From contig JALHMX010000004.1 of NCBI GenBank assembly GCA_022843825.1, forward strand, positions 62,001 through 126,000: a DNA stretch of 64,000 nt, read 5' to 3'. The stretch is from Pseudobdellovibrionaceae bacterium (GTDB taxonomy: Bacteria; Bdellovibrionota; Bdellovibrionia; Bdellovibrionales; Bdellovibrionaceae). This document shows positions 3,094-46,877 of the stretch, in pieces (within the stretch, counting starts at the first letter, position 1; each line of letters begins with the position of its first letter). Position numbers and translations under genes: made by a program. The notes below the pieces were generated by a model. That model did no database searches. It worked only from the letters and a program-made list of their open reading frames with translations, and was not told the DNA's origin.

Positions 3094-3096
3094 TGT

Positions 3097-4053: not shown

Positions 4054-4060
4054 GTGAAAC

Positions 4061-21218: not shown

Positions 21219-22545
21219 ATTGAAGTCCTCCAGTCCATCGATCATCAGATTGATGTTGCGCCAGAAAAGAGTTTTCATTTTTAGATGTTACTTCGTCTAC
21301 ACCTAATAGATCAAAACCAATAGTTATAAATAAAGATTTTATAATTTCGTGATGAGCCTTATAGGACAACAGGCTTCCAGATTGGGTTTGATCGTAGGTC
21401 CACTGAAATTCCATTGTAAATGGTTTTCTTTTAATAAGCATGATTTCTGTCTGAGCCCTTATTTTAAATGGCTCTTGAAAGAGCAGGCGCTGGCGGCCCA
21501 AAGTAAAGTCGTTTTCTTGACCATCACTATCAATGTCTATGATTTTACCACCAGTAAACCGAGCATATGAAACTTCTAACGAAGTATTATATAATTGAAC
21601 GCCGAAACCTACGCCGACACCTTCTATATTTGAAAGAAACTGAACCGTACGATTATTGGATTCAAGTTTATTTTGTGGGCGATCGAGCATATAGGAAACA
21701 AAGCCATGCATATTTTCGTGTTTGAAGACTATGTCGGAATTCACTTTTTCAGAATATCTAACAACAGGGTAAACATTGACTAAACTGTTCAAGTCTAAAT
21801 CAGCTTCGATATTTCGACTTAAGACTATCTCATTAATTGGAGAATAGGAATATGCCGTTTGAAATCTAACAGGAGAAGTCGTTGGCTCGGCTTTTAAATA
21901 AACTGTATAGCCTGACTTATTAACAACTTCACTGTAGTCATTATCTTCCAGGTTATAATGAATGTTTCGTCTTTCTCCATTACTTATAAAAGATTTAGGC
22001 GTTTGGACAATCCATGGGGTAGGTCCTACAATTTTTCCATTTTCTTCTTTTATCACAGCGCCTTGATTCGGTAAAAACAAGGGATAATAATTAAGACCAA
22101 GCTTTAACTTATCAGTGCTGGTTTCAGTGTGAAGTCCAAGTAATCCTTGAGGTGTATATTGCAAATAATCAGTGGTGAAATAAGGATTAAACAGCCCTAA
22201 ATTGAATGTACGATCAAGTTGATTCTCATAGGATATTTTTCGTCCAAAAGAAACCGAGCTATCTAAAACAGATATTTGTTTAAAGGCTTCAGGCACAGCT
22301 GCATAATTATAATCTGGATCTCCGTAGCTGCCTAAAATCAGATGCGCTTTTTGATCGTTGTCATCATAGAGATAGCGGGCCTCTATCTGATGAGAGTGAG
22401 AATTTGATAACATTTGAAACAAAATATGATAATCGGTAGCTTTAAAGTCAGGTAGATTCAAGTGAGATGTGTTTGCCCATGAAAAGTGAAAAAAGCCCAA
22501 GATTACACAAAAAACAGCATAAATGGACTGAAGTTGTTTACTCAC
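21208..22545 (-). CDS. Outer-membrane beta-barrel protein, copy 1 of the pair
   Basis: A 445-residue exported protein of no named family. The GTG-initiated N-terminus has a signal peptide ending in SWA. The body alternates hydrophobic and polar residues with many Tyr/Asn turns, and the chain ends in Gln-Tyr-Val-Phe, the aromatic C-terminus expected of a Bam-inserted barrel. The block LGLFNPYF, TPQGLLG, PLFLPNQG, GKI, PW, FI matches the barrel at 27925-29274 in the same order. It is divergent from the DUF1338 gene, with ~93 bp between them, and lies upstream of the EF-hand lipoprotein. No strong ribosome-binding site precedes the GTG. Confidence 0.8.
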   Translation of the reverse strand: MSKQLQSIYAVFCVILGFFHFSWANTSHLNLPDFKATDYHILFQMLSNSHSHQIEARYLYDDNDQKAHLILGSYGDPDYNYAAVPEAFKQISVLDSSVSFGRKISYENQLDRTFNLGLFNPYFTTDYLQYTPQGLLGLHTETSTDKLKLGLNYYPLFLPNQGAVIKEENGKIVGPTPWIVQTPKSFISNGERRNIHYNLEDNDYSEVVNKSGYTVYLKAEPTTSPVRFQTAYSYSPINEIVLSRNIEADLDLNSLVNVYPVVRYSEKVNSDIVFKHENMHGFVSYMLDRPQNKLESNNRTVQFLSNIEGVGVGFGVQLYNTSLEVSYARFTGGKIIDIDSDGQENDFTLGRQRLLFQEPFKIRAQTEIMLIKRKPFTMEFQWTYDQTQSGSLLSYKAHHEIIKSLFITIGFDLLGVDEVTSKNENSFLAQHQSDDRWTGGLQYVF

Positions 22546-23751: not shown

Positions 23752-24288
23752 ATGATTCTAACGGATAAAGAAATACTAAATAATATGGAAAAAGGGCTCA
23801 TTAAAGTGGAGCCCTTTGATTTATCTAAGCTAGGTACGAATTCCTATGATGTGCACTTAGGGAAGACCTTGGCACTTTATGATTCTGAAATTTTAGATGC
23901 TAAATCACATAATAAAATTACGACTTTTGAGATACCACCGGAAGGTTACGTACTGACTCCATCTAAATTCTATTTGGGAGTCACTGCTGAATATACGGAG
24001 ACGCTGGCTCATGTTCCATTTCTTGAGGGAAAATCAAGTGTAGGGCGTTTAGGGATAGATATTCATGCCACAGCCGGAAAAGGTGATGTGGGGTTTTGCA
24101 ACTATTGGACGCTAGAAATTTCAGTAAAACAACCTGTTCGTGTGTATGCTGGCATGCCCATTGGTCAATTGATTTACTTCGATGTCAAAGGTGAGATTGA
24201 AAACTATTACAACAAAAAATCATCAGCTAAGTATAATGAAAAAAAATCGATTCCAGTGGAGTCGATGATGTTCAAAAACAAATTCTAA
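23752..24288 (+). CDS. dcd: dCTP deaminase
   Basis: Dcd deaminates dCTP to dUTP, supplying dUMP for thymidylate synthesis. The trimeric dUTPase-like fold is shown by LGTNSYDVHLG near the start, LEGKSSVGRLGIDIHATAG with the conserved Ser-Ser-x-Gly-Arg and catalytic-Glu region, and GMPIGQLIYF near the end. Length 178 aa is typical. I cannot tell from sequence whether it is the monofunctional or bifunctional (DCD/DUT) type. The 3' end overlaps the convergent minus-strand gene by 4 bp. Confidence 0.93.
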   Translation: MILTDKEILNNMEKGLIKVEPFDLSKLGTNSYDVHLGKTLALYDSEILDAKSHNKITTFEIPPEGYVLTPSKFYLGVTAEYTETLAHVPFLEGKSSVGRLGIDIHATAGKGDVGFCNYWTLEISVKQPVRVYAGMPIGQLIYFDVKGEIENYYNKKSSAKYNEKKSIPVESMMFKNKF

Positions 24289-25604
24289 TCTATACATTTT
24301 GCAACGATATCGTGACCGATCCAAGCGACTGGTCCTGCAGGTTTGAAGGCTTCATGAAGCATAATATAACCACAAGACTTAAAAATTACTTCGCTTAATT
24401 GTGGCGCCATTAAAAGTTTTGGATCTTTATGAAATGAAATAACCTGATCCGAAAGTTGCAATGTTTTTGCAAGTTGTTCTTGTTGGGAATGTTGTGGCCA
24501 GTTGATATATTTGCTGGTTCCCACTTTCTCAACGTAATCCATATACTCATCTATAAGTTTAAACATGGTTTCTAGATCGGCGGGATTATTTAAAACATGC
24601 TCGCATTCGCGACGTAGTTTTACTGTGATGGGGTGATTAGGGGCCTCTTTTTCTAAGGCGCGGATTAAGTTATATAACGGAATTTCAACGCCTTGAAAGA
24701 TGGAGCTGGAGTTCGTTAAGATCTCGGGGCAGTTGTAAACACAAGCCTGCACACCCTGACCAAACCAGGCTTTAGCATAATCCTCTAATTGAACTTTTGC
24801 CCATCCTTGAATATAGGGTGCATAAGATTGCCAGCGGTATTCGTTATGGATAACCACCTCTGTACCGTGGTATCCATAAGCCACGTAGCTGACACTGCCG
24901 TGGTGAGACTCGATTTTATTTCTTAAATCAGTTGTTTCGTTGATCAGAATATTAAAAGTCTCAGCTGTGACTTCTAAAAAATTTTGTCGCATGAATTCAC
25001 CAATTGAGCTTTGCATAAAAGTGATAGAATCTAAATAGCGATCTCCTACGCCTTTAAAAACGCGATTCATTAAAGGCATAACGATTTTAGTTCGTGGAAC
25101 TCCGCCCGCCATTAAGTGGGCAAAGTGAACATGACATCCATTTTTTATATTATCCTGTATAAGTTGATCAAGTTCATGGATAAAAGATTTCACATTGTTT
25201 GTGAAGCGCGTGCGAGCGGACTGTTTAGCTTGCAATAGGACGTGGCTTGGAACTTCGGCGGATTGCCACTCGCTGAGCTTGAATCCTTTAAGATAGTCAT
25301 TGGGCGTTTTATCATTGGCATCTTTTTCTAAATCAAAGCCGGCTTCTAGGGGGATATTAATAAAGGGCTTGGGGATATTTTCAGCCTCTTCAGCATTCAA
25401 AGGTCTTAAATTTTGATTTTCATCACGACGTCCTACGGTAGCGCGAACGATAGTAAGTCCATATTTTTCAGCCTCTTCCACTAACCCATTGGCGTAACCG
25501 CGATTAAAAAGCTCTCCAAATAAAACGAGCACATCTCCTTTTTTATAAGAGTGAGGTTGGGGTTTTTGGCGTAAGGGCTTAAAATCTGACATATTTTGTT
25601 TCAT
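24285..25604 (-). CDS. Conserved protein of uncertain function, SDR-like N-terminus
   Basis: A 439-residue soluble protein without a signal peptide. The N-terminal KGDVLVLFGELFNRGYANGL followed by a strand and TVGRRD looks like a Rossmann/SDR-type nucleotide-binding start. Later blocks HLMAGGVPRTKIVMPLMNR, YVAYGYHGTEV and YNCPEILTNSSSIF look highly conserved in character. From memory it may belong to what some databases call FabMG-type enoyl-ACP reductases; I hold that at low confidence. It starts with an ATGA overlap on the waaA stop, so it lies in the waaF-waaA operon, which makes a lipid or envelope role plausible. Confidence 0.7.
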   Translation of the reverse strand: MKQNMSDFKPLRQKPQPHSYKKGDVLVLFGELFNRGYANGLVEEAEKYGLTIVRATVGRRDENQNLRPLNAEEAENIPKPFINIPLEAGFDLEKDANDKTPNDYLKGFKLSEWQSAEVPSHVLLQAKQSARTRFTNNVKSFIHELDQLIQDNIKNGCHVHFAHLMAGGVPRTKIVMPLMNRVFKGVGDRYLDSITFMQSSIGEFMRQNFLEVTAETFNILINETTDLRNKIESHHGSVSYVAYGYHGTEVVIHNEYRWQSYAPYIQGWAKVQLEDYAKAWFGQGVQACVYNCPEILTNSSSIFQGVEIPLYNLIRALEKEAPNHPITVKLRRECEHVLNNPADLETMFKLIDEYMDYVEKVGTSKYINWPQHSQQEQLAKTLQLSDQVISFHKDPKLLMAPQLSEVIFKSCGYIMLHEAFKPAGPVAWIGHDIVAKCID

Positions 25605-26815
25605 ATTAAATTTTCTAGTATTTTTTCTGCGATAAGTCTAGAGGAGCCGCGCTGCTTTTCGGTGTATTCTTTAATGTGTTCAAGATCTATTGTGGCATTT
25701 ACTAGATTGGTGGGTTGCAAAAGTTTTAAAATATCGTCCGTTGACCTTACCAGGTGGGTAAGACCCTTTTGTTGGGTTTCTACCGCTTCAGGGTTATTAT
25801 TAAAAAAAGGTCCAAACAAGACGTGGTTTTGGGCGGCGAGGGGCTCCATAACAGAGTGAATTTTTCTTTTGAATGATCCTCCGACGAAGGTGCAAAAAGT
25901 ATATCTATAAATATCTGCTAAATATCCTACACGATCTACAATAAGCAAAGGTGTTTTCATATTAATGTCAGTTAAGCTCGGATATTCCGACAGTAAAGTA
26001 GGGCGGTGTGATTTCAATTTCAAAGCTAGATTTTGAGCACGATGTGTATCGTGCGGAGCTATTATAATTTTATACCCAGAAGAAATCAGTTTTTCTAGAG
26101 CAGGAAAAATAACTTTTTCGTCTTCGGGCCAAGTTGAAGCAAAAATAATGCGTTGATTTAGTGATGCGCCATCAGAAAAAATAATTTTCGATGGTTGCCC
26201 CAGTCGATTAAAAACTTGGTCAAAGCGCGTATCAGAAAATGTATAGACCTGTTGATGTAATAGTATAGACAGTTCCTCTGATGTTTTGGAATCTACAGTG
26301 GTTATTAAGGAAAAATTCTTAAGAAGCCATAGGTACATTTTTCGATGAACCAGATTTAGTTTTGGAAACATCGAGATAGCCATCAAAGGAATTTTTTGAA
26401 ACTGAGCTTGGTGGATAAGTTCTGGCCAAAAATCAGTTCGAGAAAAAATGATGACTCTAGGTTTAAAATGATTGAGAGTCTTTTGAATCGCCTGGCGGGT
26501 ATCCCAAGGCAAAGGGAAAACATAATCAACATCGTCTTTGATATTAAAAAGAAGTTTCTCTGCTGAAGGTGATGAATAAGATAATACAATTTTAAGGTTC
26601 GCATTTTGAGCTTTTAACTGTTTGATTACAGCCTTACAATATTCAATTTCCCCACTAGAGGCATGAAACCACAAAGGAGAAACAATTTTTTGATTTAAAT
26701 AGTTGGTATTTGATCGCAAGCGAATCCAATTTTTAGTTTTCACGGATAAAAAAGGACTTAGAATTTGCAATATAATCTTAAAGAATAAATAGGATAAACG
26801 ATAAATATAAATCAT
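25601..26815 (-). CDS. waaA: 3-deoxy-D-manno-octulosonic acid (Kdo) transferase
   Basis: WaaA (KdtA) adds Kdo to lipid IV-A at the cytoplasmic face of the inner membrane. An N-terminal hydrophobic segment anchors it. WFHASSGEIEYCKA carries the catalytic Glu, SRTDFWPELI matches the family's TELWPN-like block, and the C-terminal GT-B half has ASTWPEDE and GGSFKRKIHSVMEPLA for CMP-Kdo binding. Length 404 aa is close to normal. The ATG overlaps the waaF stop (ATGA). This shows that the organism makes Kdo-containing LPS. Confidence 0.92.
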   Translation of the reverse strand: MIYIYRLSYLFFKIILQILSPFLSVKTKNWIRLRSNTNYLNQKIVSPLWFHASSGEIEYCKAVIKQLKAQNANLKIVLSYSSPSAEKLLFNIKDDVDYVFPLPWDTRQAIQKTLNHFKPRVIIFSRTDFWPELIHQAQFQKIPLMAISMFPKLNLVHRKMYLWLLKNFSLITTVDSKTSEELSILLHQQVYTFSDTRFDQVFNRLGQPSKIIFSDGASLNQRIIFASTWPEDEKVIFPALEKLISSGYKIIIAPHDTHRAQNLALKLKSHRPTLLSEYPSLTDINMKTPLLIVDRVGYLADIYRYTFCTFVGGSFKRKIHSVMEPLAAQNHVLFGPFFNNNPEAVETQQKGLTHLVRSTDDILKLLQPTNLVNATIDLEHIKEYTEKQRGSSRLIAEKILENLI

Positions 26816-27795
26816 AAATTCTCGAGAAGTTGATTAACTTCCGTGGCTGAAATATCATTCATACACTTATGATATACCGGATTCACGCAAGGACCTTGGC
26901 CGTGCTTGCTGCAGGGCCAGCAAGGGACATCCTTTTTTATAATAACTGTTGAAGTTCGTGAAGGAAAGCCAAACGGCGCAGCTCCCATTAGCGCTATAGT
27001 TTTTTGTCCAAGTTGCTCAGAAAAATGTAATAAACCTGTATCATTTGAAATAACCTTATCAGCCAATTGAATAACGGCAGCAGACTCAATCAATGTCGTC
27101 ATTCCAGTAAGATTAATGACATTTTTAAAGCTATTGAATTCGTTTGTAAACGTGTCTTGTCCACCAGCTAAGACAACAAAGTTTGTGTCATGGGCAAGGG
27201 AGAAGAGCTCTTTCCATTTATCAATAGGCCATCGTTTAAAATAATGAGCTGCCGAAGGTGCTACCACCACGTAGGGAAAACGGACCTGTTTAGTAAAAAG
27301 TATTTTCTTTGCGTTATCTATAGTTTCAGCGCTGAGAAAGAGTTGAGGGGGGGGCGGAAGATGAAACTTTATTTGCCATTTTTCAAGAGGTTTGAGTAGA
27401 TCTCTTTGTCCAGAAAAAGGCTTTTCAAATTTGTTAATTTTAAATCGCAATAATAAAAAACGCTTAAAGCGTTCCATGGGTTTTTGAAGTTTTTGTTGCG
27501 CTGAAATCCAATAGTAAAAGAAATTCGATCGTAAGCTATTATGAGCATCATAAATAGCATCAAAATTTTCAGCATTAAGCTTTCGTGCGATTTTCAATAA
27601 ATCAAGAAGTGAACTTGATGAAGATATAGTCCAAGTACGTGCTACAGAAGGGTGATGGTTAAACAATTGTGAAAAAATATCCTTGGTTAAAAAATGAATT
27701 TGAGCCTCAGGATATCTACTGCGTAAATGGGCGGGTATACTAAGGGCTTGCGTGACATCGCCTATACTGGAAAAGCGAATAATGAGTATTTTCAT
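26812..27795 (-). CDS. ADP-heptose:LPS heptosyltransferase (GT9)
   Basis: A GT9 glycosyltransferase of the WaaC/WaaF/RfaF type that adds heptose to the LPS inner core. The N-terminal KILIIRFSSIGDVTQALSIP is the classic heptosyltransferase start, and ISNDTGLLHFSEQLGQKTIALMG is the donor-binding block with the conserved Asp-Thr-Gly. A C-terminal CWPCSKHGQGPCVN cluster is Cys-rich, as often seen in this family. Length 327 aa. Which heptose position it uses cannot be read. It is first in the waaF-waaA-unknown operon and divergent from barrel copy 2. Confidence 0.9.
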   Translation of the reverse strand: MKILIIRFSSIGDVTQALSIPAHLRSRYPEAQIHFLTKDIFSQLFNHHPSVARTWTISSSSSLLDLLKIARKLNAENFDAIYDAHNSLRSNFFYYWISAQQKLQKPMERFKRFLLLRFKINKFEKPFSGQRDLLKPLEKWQIKFHLPPPPQLFLSAETIDNAKKILFTKQVRFPYVVVAPSAAHYFKRWPIDKWKELFSLAHDTNFVVLAGGQDTFTNEFNSFKNVINLTGMTTLIESAAVIQLADKVISNDTGLLHFSEQLGQKTIALMGAAPFGFPSRTSTVIIKKDVPCWPCSKHGQGPCVNPVYHKCMNDISATEVNQLLENL

Positions 27796-27924: not shown

Positions 27925-29274
27925 ATGGCGTTTAACGTGCGTTTTATCTATAGGACTCTAATTATGACTTTACTGCTCTTTGGGCACTTGAAGGTCTATG
28001 GTGATGCTTCTTTGTTTTTAAGATTAGAGTCTCTCAGTTTCATTAGTCAGGATTATGAAAATGATCTTAAGCAAATCAGTTTTGTTGGTTTAGACATTAA
28101 AAACACGGCTCGTACTAAAAGAGCTTCAGTTTTTAACATTGATCTAGAGGCTCGATATGCAGTTGGCCAACCTGTTTTAAGCTACGTCAATGTCAGCGAA
28201 ATGTATCTGCTGCAAAAAAATGAGTATATTAATATACACTATGGCCGACAAAAATACCGCTGGTCAGCACTAGATGAGTTATGGAGCCTGGGTTTTTTTC
28301 AGCCTCAGTTTCGCTGGAACTCGTTAGAGTCAAGTCCTCAAGGAAACGTTGGATTTTTTTTCGAGAGTACTCGTAAGCTGCATGAAAAATTAAGTTGGAT
28401 GGTCTATGCATCTCCATTATTTTTGCCTGATCAAGGGCCTGGCTATGAAATGAGAGATGGAAAATTTCAAGACAGTAATCCTTGGTTTAATCCACCGGCT
28501 CGATTTATCGATTTTGGCGGACAAGTTTTGCCGATTGATTATAGTTTAACGACGCCGAAAAATGAAGAAGTTGTGTTAAGGGCAAACTTTGGTGCTCAGG
28601 TGGGCTATATTTTTGACGAAGGATATTATGTAAGAGCTTCGTACCTTTCTACGCCATCTCACCAAATAGCAATGACTTATAAAGCCGTTTTAGTCGCGGA
28701 TCGCGTGCAAGTCGAAGTCGCACCGCAGGTTTATCAAGAAGAGAATGTCGCTGTAGACTTTGGATACGATAGTGACAGCCAACGACTCGGATTATTTTTT
28801 CTATTTAATCATCCTCATGCTGTAAATGCGACTGCTGGATTTAATTATCCAGATATAAATTCGTCTTTGAGCTGGGGTCCGCATTTACAGACTCATATTG
28901 AAGGAAAATATGGAAGCCTAAAGTTGCATGCAAGTGGACTCTGGGTGAGTGATGGGCAAATTGACGAGCAAGGGCCTGACTCCGGCCAGATTACAACGTC
29001 CCTAACATCCAAGCACCTCTCCAAGACCGCCTATAAATTGGGGGCTCATTATAAGACTTTTTTAACGACCTCAGATGTTTATTCGTTAAAGTTGGAATGG
29101 GTTAATGGAGTTGATAGTACGATTCGATTGATCAAAATTAAAAATTTACTAGAAATCGGTCAATGGTGGAGTATTAATTTAGATATTCTTTTAGTAGATA
29201 CTTCGGATGAGGCTTCGGTAGGACACTTAAGAAACTTAGACCAATTGATTGCAGGAGTACGTTATGAATTCTAA
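27925..29274 (+). CDS. Outer-membrane beta-barrel protein, copy 2 of the pair
   Basis: A 449-residue exported protein of no named family. I start it at the ATG at 27925, which gives a signal peptide (basic start, hydrophobic LIMTLLLFGHL) and a length close to copy 1 (445); the ATG at 27964 has a better ribosome-binding site (AGGA at 8 nt) but a poorer signal peptide. The frame stays open back to 27727, inside the divergent heptosyltransferase gene, which is unlikely to be coding. The chain ends Arg-Tyr-Glu-Phe, a barrel C-terminus. LGFFQPQF, SPQGNVG, PLFLPDQG, GKF, PW, FI match copy 1. A TATTAT at 27869 could be a -10 element. Confidence 0.8.
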   Translation: MAFNVRFIYRTLIMTLLLFGHLKVYGDASLFLRLESLSFISQDYENDLKQISFVGLDIKNTARTKRASVFNIDLEARYAVGQPVLSYVNVSEMYLLQKNEYINIHYGRQKYRWSALDELWSLGFFQPQFRWNSLESSPQGNVGFFFESTRKLHEKLSWMVYASPLFLPDQGPGYEMRDGKFQDSNPWFNPPARFIDFGGQVLPIDYSLTTPKNEEVVLRANFGAQVGYIFDEGYYVRASYLSTPSHQIAMTYKAVLVADRVQVEVAPQVYQEENVAVDFGYDSDSQRLGLFFLFNHPHAVNATAGFNYPDINSSLSWGPHLQTHIEGKYGSLKLHASGLWVSDGQIDEQGPDSGQITTSLTSKHLSKTAYKLGAHYKTFLTTSDVYSLKLEWVNGVDSTIRLIKIKNLLEIGQWWSINLDILLVDTSDEASVGHLRNLDQLIAGVRYEF

Positions 29275-31534
29275 AAAAATTATTATTTGTGCCTTTATAG
29301 CATTAACAGGCTGTTCGGATTTTTTAAAAGGCAAAAATCAAAAAAACGACATTTTAAAGATTCAAATTGTTGATGACTCCTGCACCGTGGACTTTAAAGC
29401 ACACCTCAATAGCATGGTTCGGTCAGAAGCTAAAGACGAAGATATACATTTGGTTTTTAACTGTATCGATCAATATTTGGCTCAGTTTCAAAACAAAGTA
29501 AATGGTAAGATTTCTCCTGATCATTATGATGCTCAGGATTTATTTTATATTACCAACCGATTTTTTAAGGACTTGAATCTTTCTAAAGAGGCCCTCTCTC
29601 AAATTTTACTGCTTAAAAAAGCTATTGTGGGTGGAAAATCTGATCAAGTTTCTAAATTGGAATTGATTCAGTTAAGGGAGTTTTTAAAAAAAGCTAAAGC
29701 TGAAGTTTTGGATTTGCATCCCTATTTTAAACATCTAAGTTTTAAACAACCCGATGAGCACTTAAGGACTTCAGAGGAAGACATTCGAAAGTCTGTTCAA
29801 AAACTTAAAATGAGTCTTAGTAAAATGTTACACATTACGCAGTTAGCAAGCTCCGAGTACTCATATTTTGATTTTAAAAATTTATTATTGAGCTTACGAT
29901 TTTTGAACTCTGAGCAGACGGATATTCTTGGTGATTTAGACATCGTCAGGCAACTTATCATCGGGACAGAGGTTATCAATACCTCAGAAGACTACGCTAG
30001 TGTGCTGAATAGTCATCTGGATTTTTTTCAAATATTTATATTGGCCATTCATGGTCATATTGCTTTTGAGATGAAGACTATGGAGTCTACTGATAAGGCG
30101 ATCAGCTATGTTGATGAAATAGTAAGTGTGCTAAGAAACACTTGGCAATTTCAAAAAACAGGACAGATAGCTTTGACAGACTTGGATGCGCTGTTAGAAG
30201 TTGTTTTAAAGAAGAAAATTTTGCCTTTTAAAGTTAAGTTTGAAACATTTAGAGATTTTTACAAAGTCACTTTAAAGCGACTGTTTAAGCATCAGGCAAG
30301 TGGTTATATAGATATATCACAGTTTCAGGCTTACGAAAGAGAAGCTGAAATCTTTAAATTAAACATGAAGTTTTTGAAAAGCTTAGGAAATCAAGCGTTG
30401 GCACCGAGCGAAATCCCTAAGAAATTATCAAAATTTACTGCTGGCAAAAACTATTTAGTAACTGCTTTAGCTGATTTGTATAATGATTATTCTACTTTGT
30501 ATCCCATGGTGGTAAAAAACAGAAAACTGTTTGTTAGCACGGGGTCTGTTCAGGCTAAGGTTCTTCCTCTAGATCTTATGCACAGTTTTTATATCAGGAT
30601 GTTAGCACGGCAGTTGCTGATAGGATGGGGAAATGCACAGACATCTTCTCAATTATTAAAATCACAAATTAATAAGGACCAGTTGATACAGTTTATGCAG
30701 GATTTCAATCAATTCGGCATCGAGCTTAAACTTAACGATCCTCGGTCAAAAGGAAATGGCGCCAAAAACTTTTTAGAGGCTGATATTCTAGGTTTTCATT
30801 CGGACGGAGATGGAATGATGTCTATGCTTGAAACCATTGAATATTTGCATCACTTAGTGGCAGAGGGGTCTTGGGCTGTGAATGAAATACAAGCAGATCT
30901 GAAGGCGCAGCAATGTCATATCAATGAGTTGGATGTATTTGGAATTCCTTATAGCTCCGATCAGTGTTTCTACAACTTAGTGAAACATAATTATTCAAAG
31001 TACTTTGCTAATAAACCTGGATTAGTGAAATACTTGAGTCAGCTTTCGGCGATGGATTTTCAACAGTATTACTCTTTGCTGATCGATGTGGGGCGATTTG
31101 AAATATTAAACAAGGGCTTAAAAGTTGAAACCGTCGACTTACAAAGTTTTGTTGTCATTAGTACATACGTAGAGGGTTTACTCAGTAAGTATGATTCAGA
31201 TAAGAACGGTGCCCTTTCGGCAGCAGAGATTCGTAAGGGCTATTCTAAGTTCAAAACTTTTGCGACAGATTATAGCCTACAAAATGCCGCAGATGCCTTA
31301 GATAAGTGGGATTCCAAATTCAACTATTGCCGAATGTTTTATTCAAAAGAAGATCTGATACGAGAATCTTTTGTTTTTATGGTTTTAAATAACGGTATTA
31401 CTCCTATCATGAGTGATCTTAATTATGTCAGTTGTGGTGTTAATGGGTTGTTTACTTTTAAAAAAGAAGTTGATCGGAAAAGCATTATAAACACTTTCTT
31501 TGTACTAAAGACTGTATTAGCATCGAAGAAATGA
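29264..31534 (+). CDS. Large EF-hand lipoprotein, copy 2 of the pair
   Basis: A 756-residue predicted lipoprotein homologous to copy 1 (753 residues). The signal peptide ends in LTGC with Cys17, the same position as in copy 1, and Ser at +2 predicts the outer membrane. A canonical EF-hand loop DSDKNGALSAAE starts near residue 644 and a second loop HSDGDGMMSMLE is near-canonical except for His at position 1. Shared blocks with copy 1 include FNCI/LNCI, VxGxxxPD, LKxAxxGG and KxELxxL in the first 150 residues. The ATG lies inside the barrel gene's last Tyr codon (11-bp overlap). Its stop overlaps the MFS gene (ATGA). Confidence 0.85.
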   Translation: MNSKKIIICAFIALTGCSDFLKGKNQKNDILKIQIVDDSCTVDFKAHLNSMVRSEAKDEDIHLVFNCIDQYLAQFQNKVNGKISPDHYDAQDLFYITNRFFKDLNLSKEALSQILLLKKAIVGGKSDQVSKLELIQLREFLKKAKAEVLDLHPYFKHLSFKQPDEHLRTSEEDIRKSVQKLKMSLSKMLHITQLASSEYSYFDFKNLLLSLRFLNSEQTDILGDLDIVRQLIIGTEVINTSEDYASVLNSHLDFFQIFILAIHGHIAFEMKTMESTDKAISYVDEIVSVLRNTWQFQKTGQIALTDLDALLEVVLKKKILPFKVKFETFRDFYKVTLKRLFKHQASGYIDISQFQAYEREAEIFKLNMKFLKSLGNQALAPSEIPKKLSKFTAGKNYLVTALADLYNDYSTLYPMVVKNRKLFVSTGSVQAKVLPLDLMHSFYIRMLARQLLIGWGNAQTSSQLLKSQINKDQLIQFMQDFNQFGIELKLNDPRSKGNGAKNFLEADILGFHSDGDGMMSMLETIEYLHHLVAEGSWAVNEIQADLKAQQCHINELDVFGIPYSSDQCFYNLVKHNYSKYFANKPGLVKYLSQLSAMDFQQYYSLLIDVGRFEILNKGLKVETVDLQSFVVISTYVEGLLSKYDSDKNGALSAAEIRKGYSKFKTFATDYSLQNAADALDKWDSKFNYCRMFYSKEDLIRESFVFMVLNNGITPIMSDLNYVSCGVNGLFTFKKEVDRKSIINTFFVLKTVLASKK

Positions 31535-32715
31535 GTTCCACTTCTGAATCTAAGAGAAAATTTCCTTTTCCTATCCATCAATCAACCTGGGCAGTTCTTT
31601 TTGCATTTATAAGTATGTTTGTTTTGGGGTTAGCAGATAACATTCGTGGTCCCTTGTTTCCAGAAGTTCTAGAGTATTTTAATCTGACCAGCGCTAAAGG
31701 TTCCTGGAGCTTCGCGGCCACCTCAGCTGCAGCACTTTTAGGAAGTTGGTCAAGTTTATATTTTTTAAAGCGCTATACAATCTCTACCTTACTATTAATG
31801 GCCGTCGTTTCCATGGGTTTTGGCGTTTTTATTATGGGCTATGCTGCGCAGTTTTGGGTGTTTATAGTTGGAAGCTTCTTTTTAGGGGTCAGTATCGGCT
31901 GGATGAGCGTTTCGCAAAATTTATTGGTCTCGGAAAGTGTTACTGTGGAAAGAAAATCCCGTGCTCTTTCAGGGCTGCATTCAATTTATGGTTTAGCAAG
32001 TTTTGTGGCTCCAGTTCTGGCGGCTTTAATAACCAGCAGAACCGAAAGCTGGAGAAGTACTTTTATTCTTATATCTGCATTGTGTGTCGTTTATTTAATT
32101 GTGCACGGCTTTGTAAGGGCAGAACCTTCTTTTCCTATTGTTCAAAATATCGAAGAAGATAAAATTGATAAGACAAGAATATCATTGATATCTTTGTTTT
32201 CTATTGGTGGTTTGTTTGCCTTTTATGTTGTGGCAGAAATTTTAATTGGTACAAGACTGGCTCAGTATATGCGAAATTATTACTCAATGGACCTTCTTCG
32301 TTCTAGTGAGTATGTTACGTATTTCTTTTTATTTCTTCTTATAGGTCGTGTTATTTTTGCATTTAACAAGTTTCCCCTGTCGACGAAACTGCAGATGAAT
32401 ATCTCTTTAGCTATATCACTTATCTTGTTGATATTAGGACTGAATTCTCACCCAATCATTCTTACTCTCGTAGGTTTGTCTATGGCCCCATTTTACCCGT
32501 TGTGTGTGACGTACATAAGTGAAGTTACTGGCGTACATGCACGTAAATTTTTAACGTTTTCAATAACCTTTCAAAGTGCAGCCGTCGTATCTATGCATCT
32601 GGGGGTGGGCTATTTGACGGATACGTTGGGCCTACTTTATGCTTTTGGAGTTGGGATATTTGCGCTAATATTATCTTTAGTATGTTTAAACTTACATCCG
32701 CAAAAACTCTATTAA
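31531..32715 (+). CDS. Major facilitator superfamily transporter
   Basis: A 394-residue inner-membrane protein with about 12 hydrophobic helices in two halves. MFVLGLADNIRGPLFPEVLEYF on helix 1 and GVSIGWMSVSQNLLVSESV in the first half resemble sugar/FucP-like or YfkF-like MFS proteins. The substrate is unknown. It overlaps the EF-hand lipoprotein by 4 bp and the next barrel gene by 34 bp. The inner-membrane carrier is therefore translationally coupled to outer-membrane components, which suggests they serve one uptake or export path. Confidence 0.85.
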   Translation: MSSTSESKRKFPFPIHQSTWAVLFAFISMFVLGLADNIRGPLFPEVLEYFNLTSAKGSWSFAATSAAALLGSWSSLYFLKRYTISTLLLMAVVSMGFGVFIMGYAAQFWVFIVGSFFLGVSIGWMSVSQNLLVSESVTVERKSRALSGLHSIYGLASFVAPVLAALITSRTESWRSTFILISALCVVYLIVHGFVRAEPSFPIVQNIEEDKIDKTRISLISLFSIGGLFAFYVVAEILIGTRLAQYMRNYYSMDLLRSSEYVTYFFLFLLIGRVIFAFNKFPLSTKLQMNISLAISLILLILGLNSHPIILTLVGLSMAPFYPLCVTYISEVTGVHARKFLTFSITFQSAAVVSMHLGVGYLTDTLGLLYAFGVGIFALILSLVCLNLHPQKLY

Positions 32716-33728
32716 CAAGTCTGTTTACGGTCAGTATCATATTAACTTTTAATTGTGATTCAGTATGGGCCCAAAGAAATAGCAGAAATTATACCGGCAC
32801 CGCCATAGTTGAGTATATAATTGATGAACGAAATATCATGGCTATTTCTGACACCGGAGACTGGAATGTAGGAGAAATCCTTCCCATTATTTCACAGAAC
32901 TCTAAAATCGGGGTATTTGCTTACACTGAATTATCGTCAGTTAAATATATTCAGCCGCGGCGCTATGAACTGAGGCTTAAATTACTCCGTCAGTCGCGAA
33001 CTTACCTTATCCAGCAGGGTGATTATGTCAAACGATTGAATTTAGATGGGGCTAATGCAGATTATATCGGAACGACGGACTTGCTTGTCAAAAACCATGA
33101 AAGTACTGTATCGGCAAAATATAAACCTTTGGTGCATCAAGGTATCGTCATTGGAGAAACAGCTCAAACTTTATATAAAAACGAAATTCTGATTAATTTT
33201 TTGGGTAATGCTTATTACGGATTATTTGAAAATTTTATGATCGGATCTTATTTACCGCTGAATGTGCTTACGGGAGCCAACGGAAATATTAAATATAAAC
33301 TTTATGATTCTGAATCGACAACAATATCATCCGGACTTAGTTATGCTGATATTAAAGAAAAAGGTGAGCAGAGTTTAAACTTCAATTTTTATTGGGACTC
33401 AGTATCGACCGTATCTTTGATTTCACATATCTATGTGAGCTTGGGATTAATTCGTTGGGAAGACGCCGGTGATGCCACAGCCATTAAGGCTTTAGGCTCA
33501 AGTTCATTTCAAACAGGTTATGAGGTTATCTTATCTAATTGGGATCGTTTGCTTGTTGGTCCAAGTTACAATTTTGATAAGAAAGCATTAGGCGGATACT
33601 TAGCTTACGTTTGGATTTGGGATCAGTTTCATATGGAAATTTCTATAAATACGACAAATGTAACCTCATTAAAAATTAATCCAAGTGATGGTTATTACGG
33701 TTTTTTTGATCTGTACTGGAGATTTTAG
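32682..33728 (+). CDS. Exported protein with barrel-like C-terminus, unknown family
   Basis: A 348-residue protein with a signal peptide ending in VWA. Residues ~30-130 form a compact beta-rich region (EYIIDERNIMAISDTGDWNVGE), and the rest alternates like a beta-barrel and ends in Tyr-Trp-Arg-Phe, a typical Bam signal. It starts 34 bp inside the MFS gene and shares its last base with the start of the methyltransferase (TAGTG). It is not obviously homologous to the two paired barrels. The function is unknown; outer-membrane location is inferred. Confidence 0.75.
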   Translation: MFKLTSAKTLLTSLFTVSIILTFNCDSVWAQRNSRNYTGTAIVEYIIDERNIMAISDTGDWNVGEILPIISQNSKIGVFAYTELSSVKYIQPRRYELRLKLLRQSRTYLIQQGDYVKRLNLDGANADYIGTTDLLVKNHESTVSAKYKPLVHQGIVIGETAQTLYKNEILINFLGNAYYGLFENFMIGSYLPLNVLTGANGNIKYKLYDSESTTISSGLSYADIKEKGEQSLNFNFYWDSVSTVSLISHIYVSLGLIRWEDAGDATAIKALGSSSFQTGYEVILSNWDRLLVGPSYNFDKKALGGYLAYVWIWDQFHMEISINTTNVTSLKINPSDGYYGFFDLYWRF

Positions 33729-34894
33729 TGGAAACATTTTTCGTCAGTTGTCCGGTGCGTTTTGAACAAGAGTTGATGCGAGAACTAGAGTCTTTTTGGT
33801 TTCAACTGATGGATTTAGATGGCCTACCAACGCGTGCAGCTTTTCCAGAAGTAAACATTGAAACTGGTGGCATTGAGTTTCAGGCGCCGATGCATTTGGG
33901 ATTACAGGTCAATTTTTTTACGCGTATAGGATTGCGCGTTCTGTTGCGCGTAAATCGTTTTGAGGCTCGGTACTTTGATTTACTCGAAAAAGAATTGAAG
34001 AAAATGCAACTTTCAAGATATGTAAATCCTCAGCCGATGAATATTCTTATCGAATCTTCTCAATCTCGGTTGTTTCATGAAAAAAACTTACTTGAGTGTG
34101 TCAGTAAAGTTTTGTCTCAGCAAAAATACAGCTATGACAAAAACGCGGTTGTTAGTTTGTATATAAGAGTCTTTAAAGATAAAGTTACAGTCAGTCTTGA
34201 TACCAGTGGAGAGCACCTTCATTTTAGAGGGTATAGAAAACATCAAGGAGAGGCGCCGCTGCGGGAAAACCTAGCCAGCCTTGTTCTTGAGTTAGCTAAG
34301 ATTGATGTTTATCAAGAACAAATATTATTAGATCCTTATTGTGGTTCGGGAACATTTTTCTTTGAAGCCTGGCTTAAGGGTATGCCTAACTTTGCAAGAG
34401 AATATTCTTTTCTTACATTTAAAACTACTCCAGCTATTTTCAAATCAGAAACTTGGAAGAAAAACTATCGATGGGTTGATTATAATAAAAAAATCATATG
34501 CATAGGCTTTGATAAAAATGCTGAAACGCATAAGAAAGCCATTATGAATCAGCACTTTTTCAATGAAAATTATTTTCCTACAAATATTTCTTTTAAAAAG
34601 TTGGATAGTGAAGCATCAGATATTAATCAAGAGCTGTTAGATTCAAGTTTCCCCGTAACTATTATTACTAACCCGCCCTACGGAGAAAGATCTGCCGCCG
34701 GCGCTGTCGTATCCTTTATAGAGCGGTTAGAAGGTATTAAGAATCTAGAACAAATTGTTGTGATTCATCCTGAAAGCTGGAGATTTAAATTTAAAAAAAT
34801 GAGACAGGCGTCTATTTTTAGTTTGTCAAATCAAGGGATAAAAACAGTCGTCAGCGTTTTTAAAACCAGAGATAATCAAGAAAAGTCGGTTTAG
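33728..34894 (+). CDS. THUMP/RlmL-type RNA N2-guanosine methyltransferase-like protein
   Basis: A 388-residue SAM-dependent methyltransferase of the RlmL (YcbY N-half)/YpsC group, members of which modify 23S rRNA. An N-terminal ferredoxin-like/THUMP part (to ~160) precedes HFRGYRKHQGEAPLRENLA, the SAM motif LLDPYCGSGTFFFEA and the catalytic TNPPYGER. The GTG start overlaps the preceding stop by one base. The 3' end overlaps the convergent gene by 35 bp. The exact guanosine target is not readable. Confidence 0.85.
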   Translation: METFFVSCPVRFEQELMRELESFWFQLMDLDGLPTRAAFPEVNIETGGIEFQAPMHLGLQVNFFTRIGLRVLLRVNRFEARYFDLLEKELKKMQLSRYVNPQPMNILIESSQSRLFHEKNLLECVSKVLSQQKYSYDKNAVVSLYIRVFKDKVTVSLDTSGEHLHFRGYRKHQGEAPLRENLASLVLELAKIDVYQEQILLDPYCGSGTFFFEAWLKGMPNFAREYSFLTFKTTPAIFKSETWKKNYRWVDYNKKIICIGFDKNAETHKKAIMNQHFFNENYFPTNISFKKLDSEASDINQELLDSSFPVTIITNPPYGERSAAGAVVSFIERLEGIKNLEQIVVIHPESWRFKFKKMRQASIFSLSNQGIKTVVSVFKTRDNQEKSV

Positions 34895-37520: not shown

Positions 37521-38945
37521 ATGCAATTCAAAAATAAGACATTTCAAAAACTTTGGCGATTCGCGACTTCATTTCAACTGGGAATTCCTGTTATTGCATC
37601 AATTATGATTTTGTCAATTTGGGGGACGATTGTAGAATCTCGTTATGATGCGTGGACTGCGCAAAAGGTCGTTTACCAAAGTTGGTGGATGTATATTTCA
37701 ATGACACTTTTAGTTTTTAATTTGACCATTGTCATGATTGATCGATTACCTTGGAAAAAAAATCACTACCCCTTTATTTTGGTTCACATAGGAATTATTA
37801 CCATTGTTTTGGGTGGGTGGATCACGCAAAAATTTGGCATTGATGGCAGTATGCGGGTGCCCATCGGCAAATCCCATAACATGGTGACAGTTCCTCCAAC
37901 TGATTTTTCTGTTTATGCGACATTTGATGGCGAAAGATATACAAAAATTTACGATCGAGAGGTCGATTTTTTTAATTCTAATATCAGCGAATCCAGGCCC
38001 GTGGTTTTTGATCTTAATTACGGAACTTCACCAGACAGCAATCAGTTGAAAGTGCTTAAATACTACCCTTATGCGCGTGCGTCCCAAAAAGTAATACCCA
38101 CAGATGAGATCGCAGCAGGAAGCTCTATACGTTTTCAGCTTATGAATGCGCAAGTAAAGCAGATTGAAAGTTTAACACAGCAAAATAAAAACAAAGTTGC
38201 TGAGACCACGCTAGGATTACTGAATCTATACTTGGGCTACAATGTTGATGTATTAGGAAGGAAAAATCCGCAGTCGAATGAGGCCTATTTTAATTCAATC
38301 GATAAGCAGTACTTGTCCTTTTCATTTTATAATAAAGATAATCCAAAGCCGTATCAAACAGGTAAGATAAAAATCGGTGATGTGATTCAAACTCAGTGGA
38401 TGGGCTTAGAAGTTCGACTGTTGGACTATAACGAAAAGGCAAAATCCTTGTGGGAAGTGATACCGACGGACTACCCAACGGCATTGACCACCAGTGCGAT
38501 TCAAATCAGTATGGGAAAAAATACGGAATGGATTCTGTTAAATGATACAGTTAAAATTTTCACTGACAACGTAGCCTATATAGTGGCTTATCATAATCGG
38601 CAGTTACCCTTAGACTTTAAAATTCATGTGAATAAGTTTGAAATAGAAAAGTATCAGGGCACTGAAAGGGCTAAAGAGTATTCTAGTCTGGTGACCGTGG
38701 ATGATCCACTGTACAGCTCAGCGGAACCTATTTTAATTTCAATGAATGAGCCACTGAAGTATCGAGGTTATACTTTTTATCAAGCCAGCTTTGACTTGGA
38801 CGAAAACACCGGACAGCCGGTGGCATCGATTTTTTCGGTAAACCGAGATCCAGGAAGAACGACTAAGTATTTAGGTTCAATTATTTTTTCATTAGGTATA
38901 GTGTGGCTTTTTTATCAGCGACGTAAAAGGAGAACAGCAATATGA
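37521..38945 (+). CDS. resB: Cytochrome c biogenesis protein ResB (Ccs1)
   Basis: ResB with CcsA forms system II, which exports haem and attaches it to apocytochromes on the periplasmic side. Three membrane helices lie in the first ~115 residues (one around LGIPVIASIMILSIWG, two around TLLVFNLTIVMI and ILVHIGIITIVLGG), then a large periplasmic part, and a final helix near residue 450 before a basic tail. The length of 474 aa is compatible with the family. The C-terminal LKYRGYTFYQASFD is a family hallmark. It overlaps ccsA by 4 bp. Confidence 0.92.
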   Translation: MQFKNKTFQKLWRFATSFQLGIPVIASIMILSIWGTIVESRYDAWTAQKVVYQSWWMYISMTLLVFNLTIVMIDRLPWKKNHYPFILVHIGIITIVLGGWITQKFGIDGSMRVPIGKSHNMVTVPPTDFSVYATFDGERYTKIYDREVDFFNSNISESRPVVFDLNYGTSPDSNQLKVLKYYPYARASQKVIPTDEIAAGSSIRFQLMNAQVKQIESLTQQNKNKVAETTLGLLNLYLGYNVDVLGRKNPQSNEAYFNSIDKQYLSFSFYNKDNPKPYQTGKIKIGDVIQTQWMGLEVRLLDYNEKAKSLWEVIPTDYPTALTTSAIQISMGKNTEWILLNDTVKIFTDNVAYIVAYHNRQLPLDFKIHVNKFEIEKYQGTERAKEYSSLVTVDDPLYSSAEPILISMNEPLKYRGYTFYQASFDLDENTGQPVASIFSVNRDPGRTTKYLGSIIFSLGIVWLFYQRRKRRTAI

Positions 38946-40669
38946 AGTTTTTAATCAGCTCGGTTTTACTGGTCTTGTGTCTTCTGTTTTCTGGATTTAC
39001 TTTGCAGGCCGCTCCGGGAGAACGAATAAAATATATACCCGTTCAAGATGGTGGCCGGATTAAGCCTTTTGATTCTTTTGCGCGAGAGACTTTAGAGCTT
39101 ATTTACGGCAGATCATCATTTAAACGTACAGTTTCAGGCCAAAGCAGCTCTAGGGAGCCTGCCTATATTATTGTAATGTCTTTTTTATTGTCACCTGAAA
39201 GTTGGGTAGATGTTCCTGTTTTTGAAGTAAAGAACTTTGAAGTTAAAAAGTATCTCAACTTACCTCAAGATCAAAAATACTATACAGGAAATGAGTTATT
39301 CAAAGGGGAATTGTTTGCAAACTTAATGCAGCAATTAGCAGATAAACGGGAAACAAAAGAGAAGCTGACGCCGTATTATCAAGCGATACAAAGGCTGGAA
39401 AATCAGTTTTTTACATTTCGAGAAATTACAGCGGGGCGGTATATAAAAATTATTCCTCCAGAACTTTCAGATGAACCCCGAGCCGAAGGAGATAATAGTT
39501 GGGTTTCCGTTGCCGACTTACCTGAAAAGTATCAAGGCTTGTTTATCAACTTAAGTCAAAATTTAGCCAAGTACTTGGGAGAAGTTGTTAAAAGTGGAGA
39601 GAGATCAGAATCCGTTCTGGAAAGTGCAAAAAAATTAGATGAGTCCGTGGATCAGTTTATAAATACTGTTAAAACAGATGCTCAGGCGAAGAGTGCGGTT
39701 TCCTACAATCAAGCAAAAAAAGTAAGCGCTGAGATTTTCTACAACGAGGCTCACATTTTTAGATGGTCGTACATTTTTTATTTATTAGGAGCGCTTACAA
39801 TTCTTGTCGTTTGGATTAGAGACCTCAGTCGCGGTATGAAACTGGCCTGGATTTTAACTTTGATCGGTTTTACGTTACAGACGATCGGTTTTTTGTTTCG
39901 CGTTTACTTGGCGGAAAGACCTCCGGTAACGAATATGTATGAGACCGTAGTATGGGTTTCATGGGGTGCTGTTCTGTTTGCAATGATTTTGGAAAAAATT
40001 TACCGGTATAAATCTATTTTATTGTCAGGTTTATTAGTCGGTGTTTTTTCTATGGTCGTGGCGGATATGGCGCCGGCAATTTTAGATCCCAGCATACAGC
40101 CTTTAGAGGCTGTCTTAAGAAGTAATTATTGGCTTATTATCCATGTTATGACGATCACAATTTCCTACGCCGCTTTTTTTCTGGCACTTGCGCTGGGGGA
40201 CCTGGGGCTTATTTATTATGTTATTAATCCTAAAAAATATCAGGAGCAGATACGAAATATTTCGACTGCAATTTATCGAGCTATGCAAATTGGAGTAGCA
40301 TTTCTAGCACCGGGAATAATATTGGGTGGAGTTTGGGCAGATTACTCGTGGGGTCGTTTTTGGGGTTGGGATCCTAAAGAAACTTGGGCATTAATTGTCC
40401 TTTTGGGTTACATAATAGTGCTGCACGCGCGATTAGTAAATTGGATTCAGAATTTTGGGATGCTGGTTTCTGGAATTCTTACATTTAATCTGGTTATCAT
40501 GGCTTGGTACGGAGTTAACTACGTTCTTGGCGCAGGGCTTCATTCCTATGGATTCGGCGCGGGTGGGATCGAGTATGTTTCAGTTTTTACTCTCGCACAT
40601 GTTCTTTTCGTCATCTACGCGGCCGTAATCAAAAAAACTTATGTGTCTGCAAGTAAAGATGTGAAGTGA
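38942..40669 (+). CDS. ccsA: Cytochrome c biogenesis protein CcsA, with long N-terminal region
   Basis: CcsA carries the haem-handling WWD domain of system II. GRFWGWDPKETWALIVLLGY is the tryptophan-rich signature, with flanking membrane helices and conserved histidines (IIHVMTITISYAAF, LHARLVNW, LHSYGFG). The N-terminal ~270 residues add a signal-like segment and a periplasmic domain, making it 575 residues, well above the usual ~300-400; this fused extension recalls the CcsBA-type arrangement of some Proteobacteria and Bacteroidetes. An AAGGAGA site precedes the ATG. actA follows after a 121-bp gap with a promoter candidate. Confidence 0.92.
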   Translation: MKFLISSVLLVLCLLFSGFTLQAAPGERIKYIPVQDGGRIKPFDSFARETLELIYGRSSFKRTVSGQSSSREPAYIIVMSFLLSPESWVDVPVFEVKNFEVKKYLNLPQDQKYYTGNELFKGELFANLMQQLADKRETKEKLTPYYQAIQRLENQFFTFREITAGRYIKIIPPELSDEPRAEGDNSWVSVADLPEKYQGLFINLSQNLAKYLGEVVKSGERSESVLESAKKLDESVDQFINTVKTDAQAKSAVSYNQAKKVSAEIFYNEAHIFRWSYIFYLLGALTILVVWIRDLSRGMKLAWILTLIGFTLQTIGFLFRVYLAERPPVTNMYETVVWVSWGAVLFAMILEKIYRYKSILLSGLLVGVFSMVVADMAPAILDPSIQPLEAVLRSNYWLIIHVMTITISYAAFFLALALGDLGLIYYVINPKKYQEQIRNISTAIYRAMQIGVAFLAPGIILGGVWADYSWGRFWGWDPKETWALIVLLGYIIVLHARLVNWIQNFGMLVSGILTFNLVIMAWYGVNYVLGAGLHSYGFGAGGIEYVSVFTLAHVLFVIYAAVIKKTYVSASKDVK

Positions 40670-40718
40670 TGATTTTTTAAGAAAGCTTATTGTTGTCATT
40701 AAGTTTTCAAAATCCACC

Positions 40719-40747
40719 GTGACATTTTAAAGCAACTGTTTTTAAAT
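40719..40747 (+). promoter_or_regulatory. Sigma70-type promoter candidate for the act operon
   Basis: GTGACA at 40719-40724, a 17-nt spacer and TTAAAT at 40742-40747, in the 121-bp gap between ccsA and actA. Five of six and four of six bases match the consensus. The leader to actA would be about 37 nt. Confidence 0.4.
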
Positions 40748-40790
40748 TAGAGTCGATTATTTTATTTCAAGATAAGAAAGGCAAAAAAAT

Positions 40791-41366
40791 ATGTCTATGC
40801 GGAGCTTTTTGCGTTCAACGATTAAAGTTGATGTACTAAAAACTTTAGTCTTAATTTTTGCGTCGATAATTTTTACGGGGTGCTTATTTACCAATCCAGA
40901 CGGTGGAGAGCGAATTGGGATCGGATACAACAAAGGGTATTCACCAGAACAACCTTTACCATTTAGTCATGAACAGCATGTCGGACTTCATAAAATTCAA
41001 TGTCAGTATTGTCATAACCAAGTCGAAAGATCCAAACACGCAAATATTCCATCTTTAGCGACGTGTATGAATTGCCATCAACAAGTTAGTGGTACAGAAA
41101 ATACTGAAAGTATTAAAAAGTTGCGGGAAGCTTATGCAGACAATAAGCCTATTGAATGGGTTAGGGTTCACATGCTTCCTGATCATGTTCAATTTGACCA
41201 TCAGGCCCACGTGACAAAAGGAGTAAGTTGCCAAACTTGTCACGGTGAAATTGAAAAAATGGCTAAAGTTTATCAGTATTCTGATTTGTCGATGGGATGG
41301 TGTGTGAGTTGTCATCGCCAACCAGAAAATAAAGCGCCTTTGAATTGCACCACTTGCCATCAATAA
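40791..41366 (+). CDS. actA: Alternative complex III pentahaem cytochrome ActA
   Basis: ActA is the multihaem subunit of the quinol:electron-acceptor oxidoreductase ACIII. Five CxxCH motifs are visible (CQYCH, CMNCH, CQTCH, CVSCH, CTTCH). The N-terminus has a membrane helix ending in FTGC (Cys31), so it may be lipidated or anchored. Length 191 aa. The haems need system II, which is encoded just upstream. It begins the actABCDEF run. Confidence 0.93.
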   Translation: MSMRSFLRSTIKVDVLKTLVLIFASIIFTGCLFTNPDGGERIGIGYNKGYSPEQPLPFSHEQHVGLHKIQCQYCHNQVERSKHANIPSLATCMNCHQQVSGTENTESIKKLREAYADNKPIEWVRVHMLPDHVQFDHQAHVTKGVSCQTCHGEIEKMAKVYQYSDLSMGWCVSCHRQPENKAPLNCTTCHQ

Positions 41367-41381
41367 AAGTAGGAAATAAAT

Positions 41382-44300: not shown

Positions 44301-44396
44301 CTTGAAGAGTGGTATGCAAAACCAGCGGTTAGATATTTATCTAAAATTAGAAACAACGATGAAGTAACTGCCCCGAAAGGAGCTGGCCATGCTTAA
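41382..44396 (+). CDS. actB: Alternative complex III iron-sulfur/molybdopterin-like subunit ActB
   Basis: A 1004-residue periplasmic subunit. A Tat signal RREFLKLMG (Arg65-Arg66) is followed by TAAGC with Cys84 as a possible lipobox. The first ~700 residues form the molybdopterin-oxidoreductase-like domain, which in ACIII lacks the metal cofactor. From Cys773 onward a ferredoxin-like domain has four Cys clusters ([39 protein letters not shown] with CEVAC). An AGGA-containing site lies upstream of the ATG. The 3' end overlaps actC by 8 bp. Confidence 0.95.
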
Positions 44397-45759: not shown

Positions 45760-45760
45760 A

Positions 45761-46288: not shown

Positions 46289-46289
46289 T

Positions 46290-46856: not shown

Positions 46857-46877
46857 CACACAATTAAAGGAATAAAA

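Follow-up and report, generated by a model that had tools for sequence, protein, structure and literature searches.

The window, a 64,000-nucleotide stretch of a Pseudobdellovibrionaceae genome, contains five genes in close succession on its forward strand (27925–34894), whose successive overlaps measure 11, 4, 34 and 1 bp (Table 1). They encode a porin-like barrel (BARREL2), a lipoprotein (LIPO2), an MFS carrier, an exported-looking protein (OMP4) and a methyltransferase-like protein. The original prediction had described the first four of these genes, and the overlaps it gave for them proved exact (11 bp at 29264–29274, 4 bp at 31531–31534 and 34 bp at 32682–32715); the fifth gene, missing from that account, begins with a GTG at 33728 and shares 1 bp with the fourth. 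Divergently upstream of the operon lie two genes that we presume to be waaF and waaA. The gene order is not due to chance, because the same order recurs in related genomes: a comparison of neighborhoods found conserved synteny, with barrel, lipoprotein and MFS genes together at 23 of the 30 waaF loci compared within the family.

A second barrel and lipoprotein (BARREL1 and LIPO1, hereafter copy 1) lie on the reverse strand. As had been claimed, copy 1 is a two-gene unit in the window, and its genes also overlap by 11 bp (21208–21218). A profile search of the source genome (E up to 1) recovered two barrels and two lipoproteins. Promoter-like matches were no more frequent than chance predicts (28 against 27.5 expected), and promoter and terminator counts equaled those of shuffled sequence, a level that speaks neither for nor against separate promoters.

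Table 1. Features of the two barrel–lipoprotein copies and their surroundings, in window positions.
Feature	Position	Strand	Details
LIPO1, copy 1 lipoprotein	18957–21218	-	11-bp overlap with BARREL1
BARREL1, copy 1 barrel	21208–22545	-	profile match
FabMG enoyl-ACP reductase	24285–25604	-	PF22046, E 7.1e-168; between the two copies
waaA-like gene	25601–26815	-	adjoins waaF; presumed label
waaF-like gene	26812–27795	-	divergent neighbor of the operon; presumed label
BARREL2	27925–29274	+	449-aa porin-like barrel; assumed start ATG at 27925, open frame reaching back to 27727
Shine–Dalgarno-like GGAG	29254–29257	+	beta-signal Gly codon plus next base; 6 nt before lipoprotein ATG
11-bp overlap, ATGAATTCTAA	29264–29274	+	barrel beta-signal end and lipoprotein start
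LIPO2	29264–31534	+	756-aa lipoprotein of EF-hand-like architecture; lipobox LTGC, invariant Cys17
MFS carrier	31531–32715	+	394 aa; 4-bp overlap with LIPO2; PF07690
OMP4 (fourth gene)	32682–33728	+	348 aa; by eye, an apparent signal peptide; C-terminus aromatic (WRF)
Fifth gene, RlmL/UPF0020-like methyltransferase	33728–34894	+	PF01170, 66.5 bits

Sequence comparison points to the barrel–lipoprotein pair as the constrained part of the operon. The exact 11-bp overlap with an ATG start is found in 76 of 83 same-strand barrel-to-lipoprotein neighbors with distinct barrel ends. A first set of 40 such pairs, which takes in the two pairs of the window, has the ATG 11 bp before the barrel end in 38 cases and a TTG in one more. 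A second set, drawn from loci of genus g6 (12), other families of the order (8) and other families of the phylum (20), has the 11-bp overlap in 38 of 43 pairs, and there the lipoprotein is the next gene after every one of the 43 barrels that have a same-strand downstream neighbor. Other adjacent same-strand gene pairs at the loci of the first set overlap by 11 bp in 3 of 326 cases.

The barrels end in G-x-x-Y-x-F-stop, which we take to be the BAM beta-signal. The lipoprotein ATG is formed by the barrel's Tyr codon, TAT in 74 of 76 cases, together with the next G, and the Gly codon of the beta-signal plus the next G forms a Shine–Dalgarno-like GGAG or GGGG. This Gly codon is GGA or GGG in 59 of 67 cases; at all other positions of these genes, 1136 of 2558 Gly codons are (Fisher p 2.4e-13, a value that ignores shared ancestry). 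Three other genes with an ending of the G-x-x-Y-x-F-stop type do not have the 11-bp overlap. The start codon and Shine–Dalgarno sequence of the lipoprotein gene lie inside the C-terminal beta-signal of the barrel, and translation of the two genes would probably be coupled. With one beta-signal serving also as a ribosome-binding site and a start codon, the pair offers a clean and testable instance of overlapping codes that has a structural reason: G-x-x-Y-x-F-stop readily spells GGA G.. ... TAT G.. TTY TAA. In the available text of PMC10666635, the common gene overlaps are 4 and 1 nt, and pairs with very short overlaps, not ones of 11 bp, are enriched in subunits of heteromeric complexes. Similarly, simulations described in the accessible part of PMC3887535 favor 4 and then 1 nt, and the real distribution is called very similar.

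The pairing of barrel and lipoprotein is strong, not absolute. The 11-bp overlap is missing at L172, L173, L174 and twice at L201 (second set) and at L070 (first set), and the start at L050 is the TTG. Barrel and lipoprotein are neighbors on opposite strands in one distant genus (L176 and L177), and their order is reversed at L071, where the lipoprotein precedes the barrel. Lipoproteins without a recognized barrel alongside occur at six loci (L039, L048, L051, L056, L057 and L068), which does not bear out an obligate pairing. At L077, in a MAG (1736–4268), the lipoprotein gene is absent and it is the MFS start that now overlaps the barrel by 11 bp; a broken OMP4 lies close by, and an assembly fault is possible there. 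L056 and L057 share neighbors of like size, so that genus g1 may hold a third, barrel-less copy.

The 11-bp arrangement is widespread in the phylum, and in the family of the window the MFS carrier is often, not always, its neighbor. Of 290 genomes searched across the phylum, 230 contain the barrel, as do 183 of the 222 that are of good quality. A scan with two peptide patterns returned 30 loci, mostly from Bdellovibrio-type genomes with a few other MAGs, and leaves room for relatives elsewhere. In another family of the order, two tandem pairs stand beside FabMG (L096, L097 and L099; L202 and L203 are repeats of L096 and L097), and at L206 tandem pairs are followed by FabMG, waaA and waaF. The two copies of the window are separated by FabMG, waaA and waaF, together with genes of dcd- and HGLS-like type. 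Most simply, the copies would derive from an old tandem duplication whose members later became separated. Copy 1 also has recurrent neighbors: at four of the six copy 1 loci fetched (L132, L133, L134 and L137), the pair comes after same-strand genes for an M14 carboxypeptidase and for a hydrolase of the alpha/beta type (labels from Pfam on L132 and from clustering on the other three). At L038 (1459–2931), HD-GYP-like and HGLS-like neighbors of copy 1 are in pieces and copy 1 itself is absent; one barrel was found in that genome.

The original prediction had called the first gene an outer-membrane barrel from its sequence, and a structure model bears this out. The AF2 model of BARREL2 (pLDDT 89.4, pTM 0.84, 27-row alignment) matches OccK2 (Z 20.2, 301 residues, 4.0 Å), AlgE (Z 19.7, 325 residues, 4.8 Å) and Wzi (Z 18.2), which clearly places the predicted fold in the OprD/AlgE-like porin class. 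In the Foldseek ranking general porins lead, at TM-scores no better than about 0.4, and DSSP assigns the model more than 18 strand segments, some of them short (OprD has 18 strands). In the model, OprD/Occ, AlgE, Wzi and other porins all come close, and the matches do not single out a nearest function. Likeness to the substrate-specific OprD/Occ porins, and to AlgE and Wzi of the same fold class, extends over most of the barrel's length, but identity is about 6–12%. The window barrel matches no Pfam family, with one sub-threshold hit at E 0.79 in a search up to E 1; the OprD profile gave no match to it at E up to 1, and one of 33 family members matched that profile at E 0.0019. Likewise, no operon protein matched an AlgE- or Wzi-family Pfam profile at E up to 1, and a barrel profile found no PDB sequence at E up to 5. 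We know of no OprD/Occ porin that is coupled to an EF-hand lipoprotein.

The lipoprotein carries the lipobox LTGC, with Cys17 invariant in the alignment, after a signal peptide judged by eye. Cys40 and Cys67 are invariant as well, and Cys551 and Cys568 almost invariant, a pattern in keeping with export. Its AF2 model (pLDDT 85.8, pTM 0.80, 22 rows) is helical, with repeated units of short strand and helix, and most of the leading fold matches are EF-hand proteins. These matches are weak (Z at most 7.0; by the tool's guidance, a Z below 8, or below about 13 for helical folds, may reflect only a common arrangement), and Foldseek found none at E 0.001 or better. They fall on separate stretches of the protein, for instance 64–140, 228–359, 283–546, 443–664 and 538–756. 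Penta-EF-hand proteins (calpain domain VI, sorcin, ALG-2) are among the best, over residues of about 440–670, but they are short and eukaryotic and score a Z of at most 6.9.

The EF-hand motif that the original prediction assigned to the lipoprotein is present, as a Pfam EF-hand_6 match on residues 641–660 of LIPO2 (E 9.7e-5), but at 22.2 bits it falls under the curated cut-off of 25. Within it, residues 644–655 form a canonical 12-residue loop of the Ca2+ type, in which all 34 rows have Glu655 and at least 90% have Asp644; another loop, less canonical, closes with Glu523. The model is suggestive of a string of EF-hand-like pairs, which may bind Ca2+. Evidence for repeats comes from the model, from the separate ranges of the fold matches and from an internal duplication in the 1005-aa version of LIPO2 at L040 (8403–11420, reverse strand; 41% identity over 138 aa). 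Self-comparison of the lipoproteins of L033 and L034 revealed no internal duplication, unlike L040, and when the four segments proposed as EF-hands were compared by profile, no match was convincing (best P 0.015).

Barrels and large lipoproteins encoded side by side also form the SusC/SusD outer-membrane uptake pairs. The likeness is at most functional, since the pair described here joins a 449-aa barrel to a helical, EF-hand-like lipoprotein in a different phylum, and Pfam found no TonB receptor or plug, a SusC feature, in the operon proteins. EfhP and other bacterial EF-hand Ca2+ proteins have a canonical loop, according to the available text of PMC4053335, PMC11559002 and PMC9132961; compared with what is described there, the window protein differs in being a 756-aa lipoprotein with several EF-hand-like pairs and a gene that overlaps that of a porin. 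Narrow word searches of the open-licence literature found no publication on the barrel–lipoprotein pair, and the accessible portion of the PopA paper (PMC12228718) makes no mention of EF-hand, OprD or AlgE.

The third gene belongs to the MFS (PF07690, 76.2 bits against a cut-off of 33.4). By profile, its best solved relative is the fucose–proton symporter FucP (E 5.6e-9, positions 11–374), a distant likeness to the Fucose:H+ symporter family that does not imply a substrate. Muropeptide import of the AmpG type was considered for this carrier and dropped for want of NCBIfam support. No HlyD-type adaptor or TolC-type channel, as in tripartite MFS efflux pumps of the EmrAB–TolC type, was found by Pfam in the operon. 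OMP4 has no Pfam match, and a PDB search gave one chance match (E 2); a resemblance to FlgT, considered by eye, drew no supporting match. The fifth gene contains the UPF0020 domain (PF01170) and scores 110.7 bits with the NCBIfam RlmKL model, under its equivalog cut-off of 466.

Beyond the pair, the composition of the operon varies. At the 30 waaF loci, a count that omits family genomes with short contigs or with no such locus fetched, four have the pair without MFS (G018, G036, G029 and G030), and three have MFS and methyltransferase without the pair (G017, G022 and G035). A further 12 loci of genus g6 have no MFS at the operon, and 11 of them keep OMP4. The carrier itself was detected at E up to 1e-30 in 46 of the 59 genomes searched, among them 35 of the 37 that belong to the family; it lies away from the operon in the four genomes with the pair alone, and also in G023 and G028, in which only one barrel was found. 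In an MFS tree, the copies of G018/G036 and of G023/G028 nest among operon-linked ones, and although several supports are weak, this suggests that they were relocated. A midpoint-rooted tree of waaF and waaA has weak deep nodes (39–59) and so does not separate loss of the pair from its never having been present at the three loci without it. OMP4 is found at 12 of the 30 waaF loci (the contigs of G001 and G011 end before its position) and in 24 of 59 genomes.

Taking the first in-frame starts, lipoprotein and MFS genes overlap by as much as 17 bp (or 35 bp, should translation begin at an earlier TTG) and lie as far as about 46 bp apart; this junction is loose, and the barrel–lipoprotein junction is rigid. 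MFS and OMP4 overlap by 34 or 37 bp in nine of the ten junctions listed. Distance covariation in 19 genomes, for which no significance test was made, did not set the pair apart from its neighbors: partial r was 0.62 for barrel–lipoprotein, 0.63 for lipoprotein–MFS and 0.57 for barrel–MFS, and 0.26 for lipoprotein–methyltransferase. The pair is the steadier unit, with MFS and OMP4 as its partners in part of one family, and comparison of loci indicates that the MFS is an optional genomic neighbor, not an obligate subunit.

With the sum of this evidence, we consider it rather probable that the barrel and lipoprotein are coupled in translation and form a two-subunit outer-membrane channel, and that copy 2 of it resides in an operon with an optional carrier. 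The barrel would supply the pore, porin-like and with a fold of the OprD/AlgE class, and the lipoprotein, built of EF-hand-like pairs, would bind the substrate, or gate or stabilize the pore, probably in response to Ca2+. Copy 2 heads an operon that also holds the MFS carrier, an exported protein and a gene resembling rRNA methyltransferases. Whatever passes the pair may then be moved across the inner membrane by the carrier, and the direction could be inward, since among solved structures the carrier is nearest to an importer of sugar driven by protons.

A possible, though less probable, account is that the pair alone is the functional unit and that MFS, OMP4 and methyltransferase are neighbors packed together in a compact genome. 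Each of the three is found apart from the pair, and tandem pairs beside FabMG in another family lack the MFS (L096, L097, L099 and L206). Yet the order is conserved over one family, and the genes of genus g1 overlap and are not merely adjacent.

The original prediction had proposed that the four envelope proteins serve a trans-envelope uptake or export path. What stands of it is a conserved, overlapping run that includes an outer-membrane channel, a lipoprotein, an MFS carrier and an exported-looking protein; what lacks support is one obligatory machine, since relatives have the MFS and fourth genes without the pair, or unlinked from it, and six loci hold a lipoprotein with no recognized barrel. 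A single machine dedicated to this path is in our view unlikely. Every junction in the window overlaps, barrel, lipoprotein and MFS stay together at 23 of the 30 waaF loci, the MFS–OMP4 overlap is regular, and lipoprotein–MFS distances covary more than lipoprotein–methyltransferase ones (0.63 vs 0.26, without a significance test). These points are set against an MFS that is off the operon in genus g6 (G018, G036 and the 12 further loci), G029 and G030 and that lacks the pair at three waaF loci, an OMP4 present in 7 of the 40 genera sampled, the loose lipoprotein-to-MFS spacing, and a last gene, RNA methyltransferase-like, with no evident place in such a path.

Glycan or lipid export or surface display, that is, envelope assembly rather than nutrient uptake, seems improbable: the barrel scores for AlgE and Wzi are near those of OprD-type porins, the operon is flanked by the presumed waaF and waaA at those loci of the family that were studied, and in the window FabMG (PF22046) is near, but no alginate or capsule synthesis gene was recognized in the operon, Pfam profiles of the AlgE and Wzi families matched none of its proteins at E up to 1, and the MFS is nearest to a sugar–proton importer.

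Returning to the two-subunit channel, a bolder version, which we offer tentatively, is that it represents an undescribed class carried by bacteria of the Bdellovibrionota type. Its standing partner would be a calmodulin-like lipoprotein with multiple EF-hands, making it a Ca2+-sensing or Ca2+-gated porin; the barrel's beta-signal, by encoding the partner's ribosome-binding site and start codon, would set the balance of the subunits, and a copy in one family would have acquired a carrier for a full uptake path. Were this true, a phylum that includes bacterial predators would have, as a standard unit of its outer membrane, a porin joined to a lipoprotein with multiple EF-hands, and calcium could tune the permeability of that unit.

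Two further observations concern the surroundings. Seven OMP4 loci off the operon (L125–L131) adjoin a gene for a FliG_C-like coiled-coil protein (three of the seven cluster members were tested, and all three match FliG_C) and an unknown gene of ~400 aa. Additionally, the forward strand of the window carries at 37521–48074 a run of genes that we take, from their open reading frames, to be cytochrome-maturation-like and alternative-complex-III-like.
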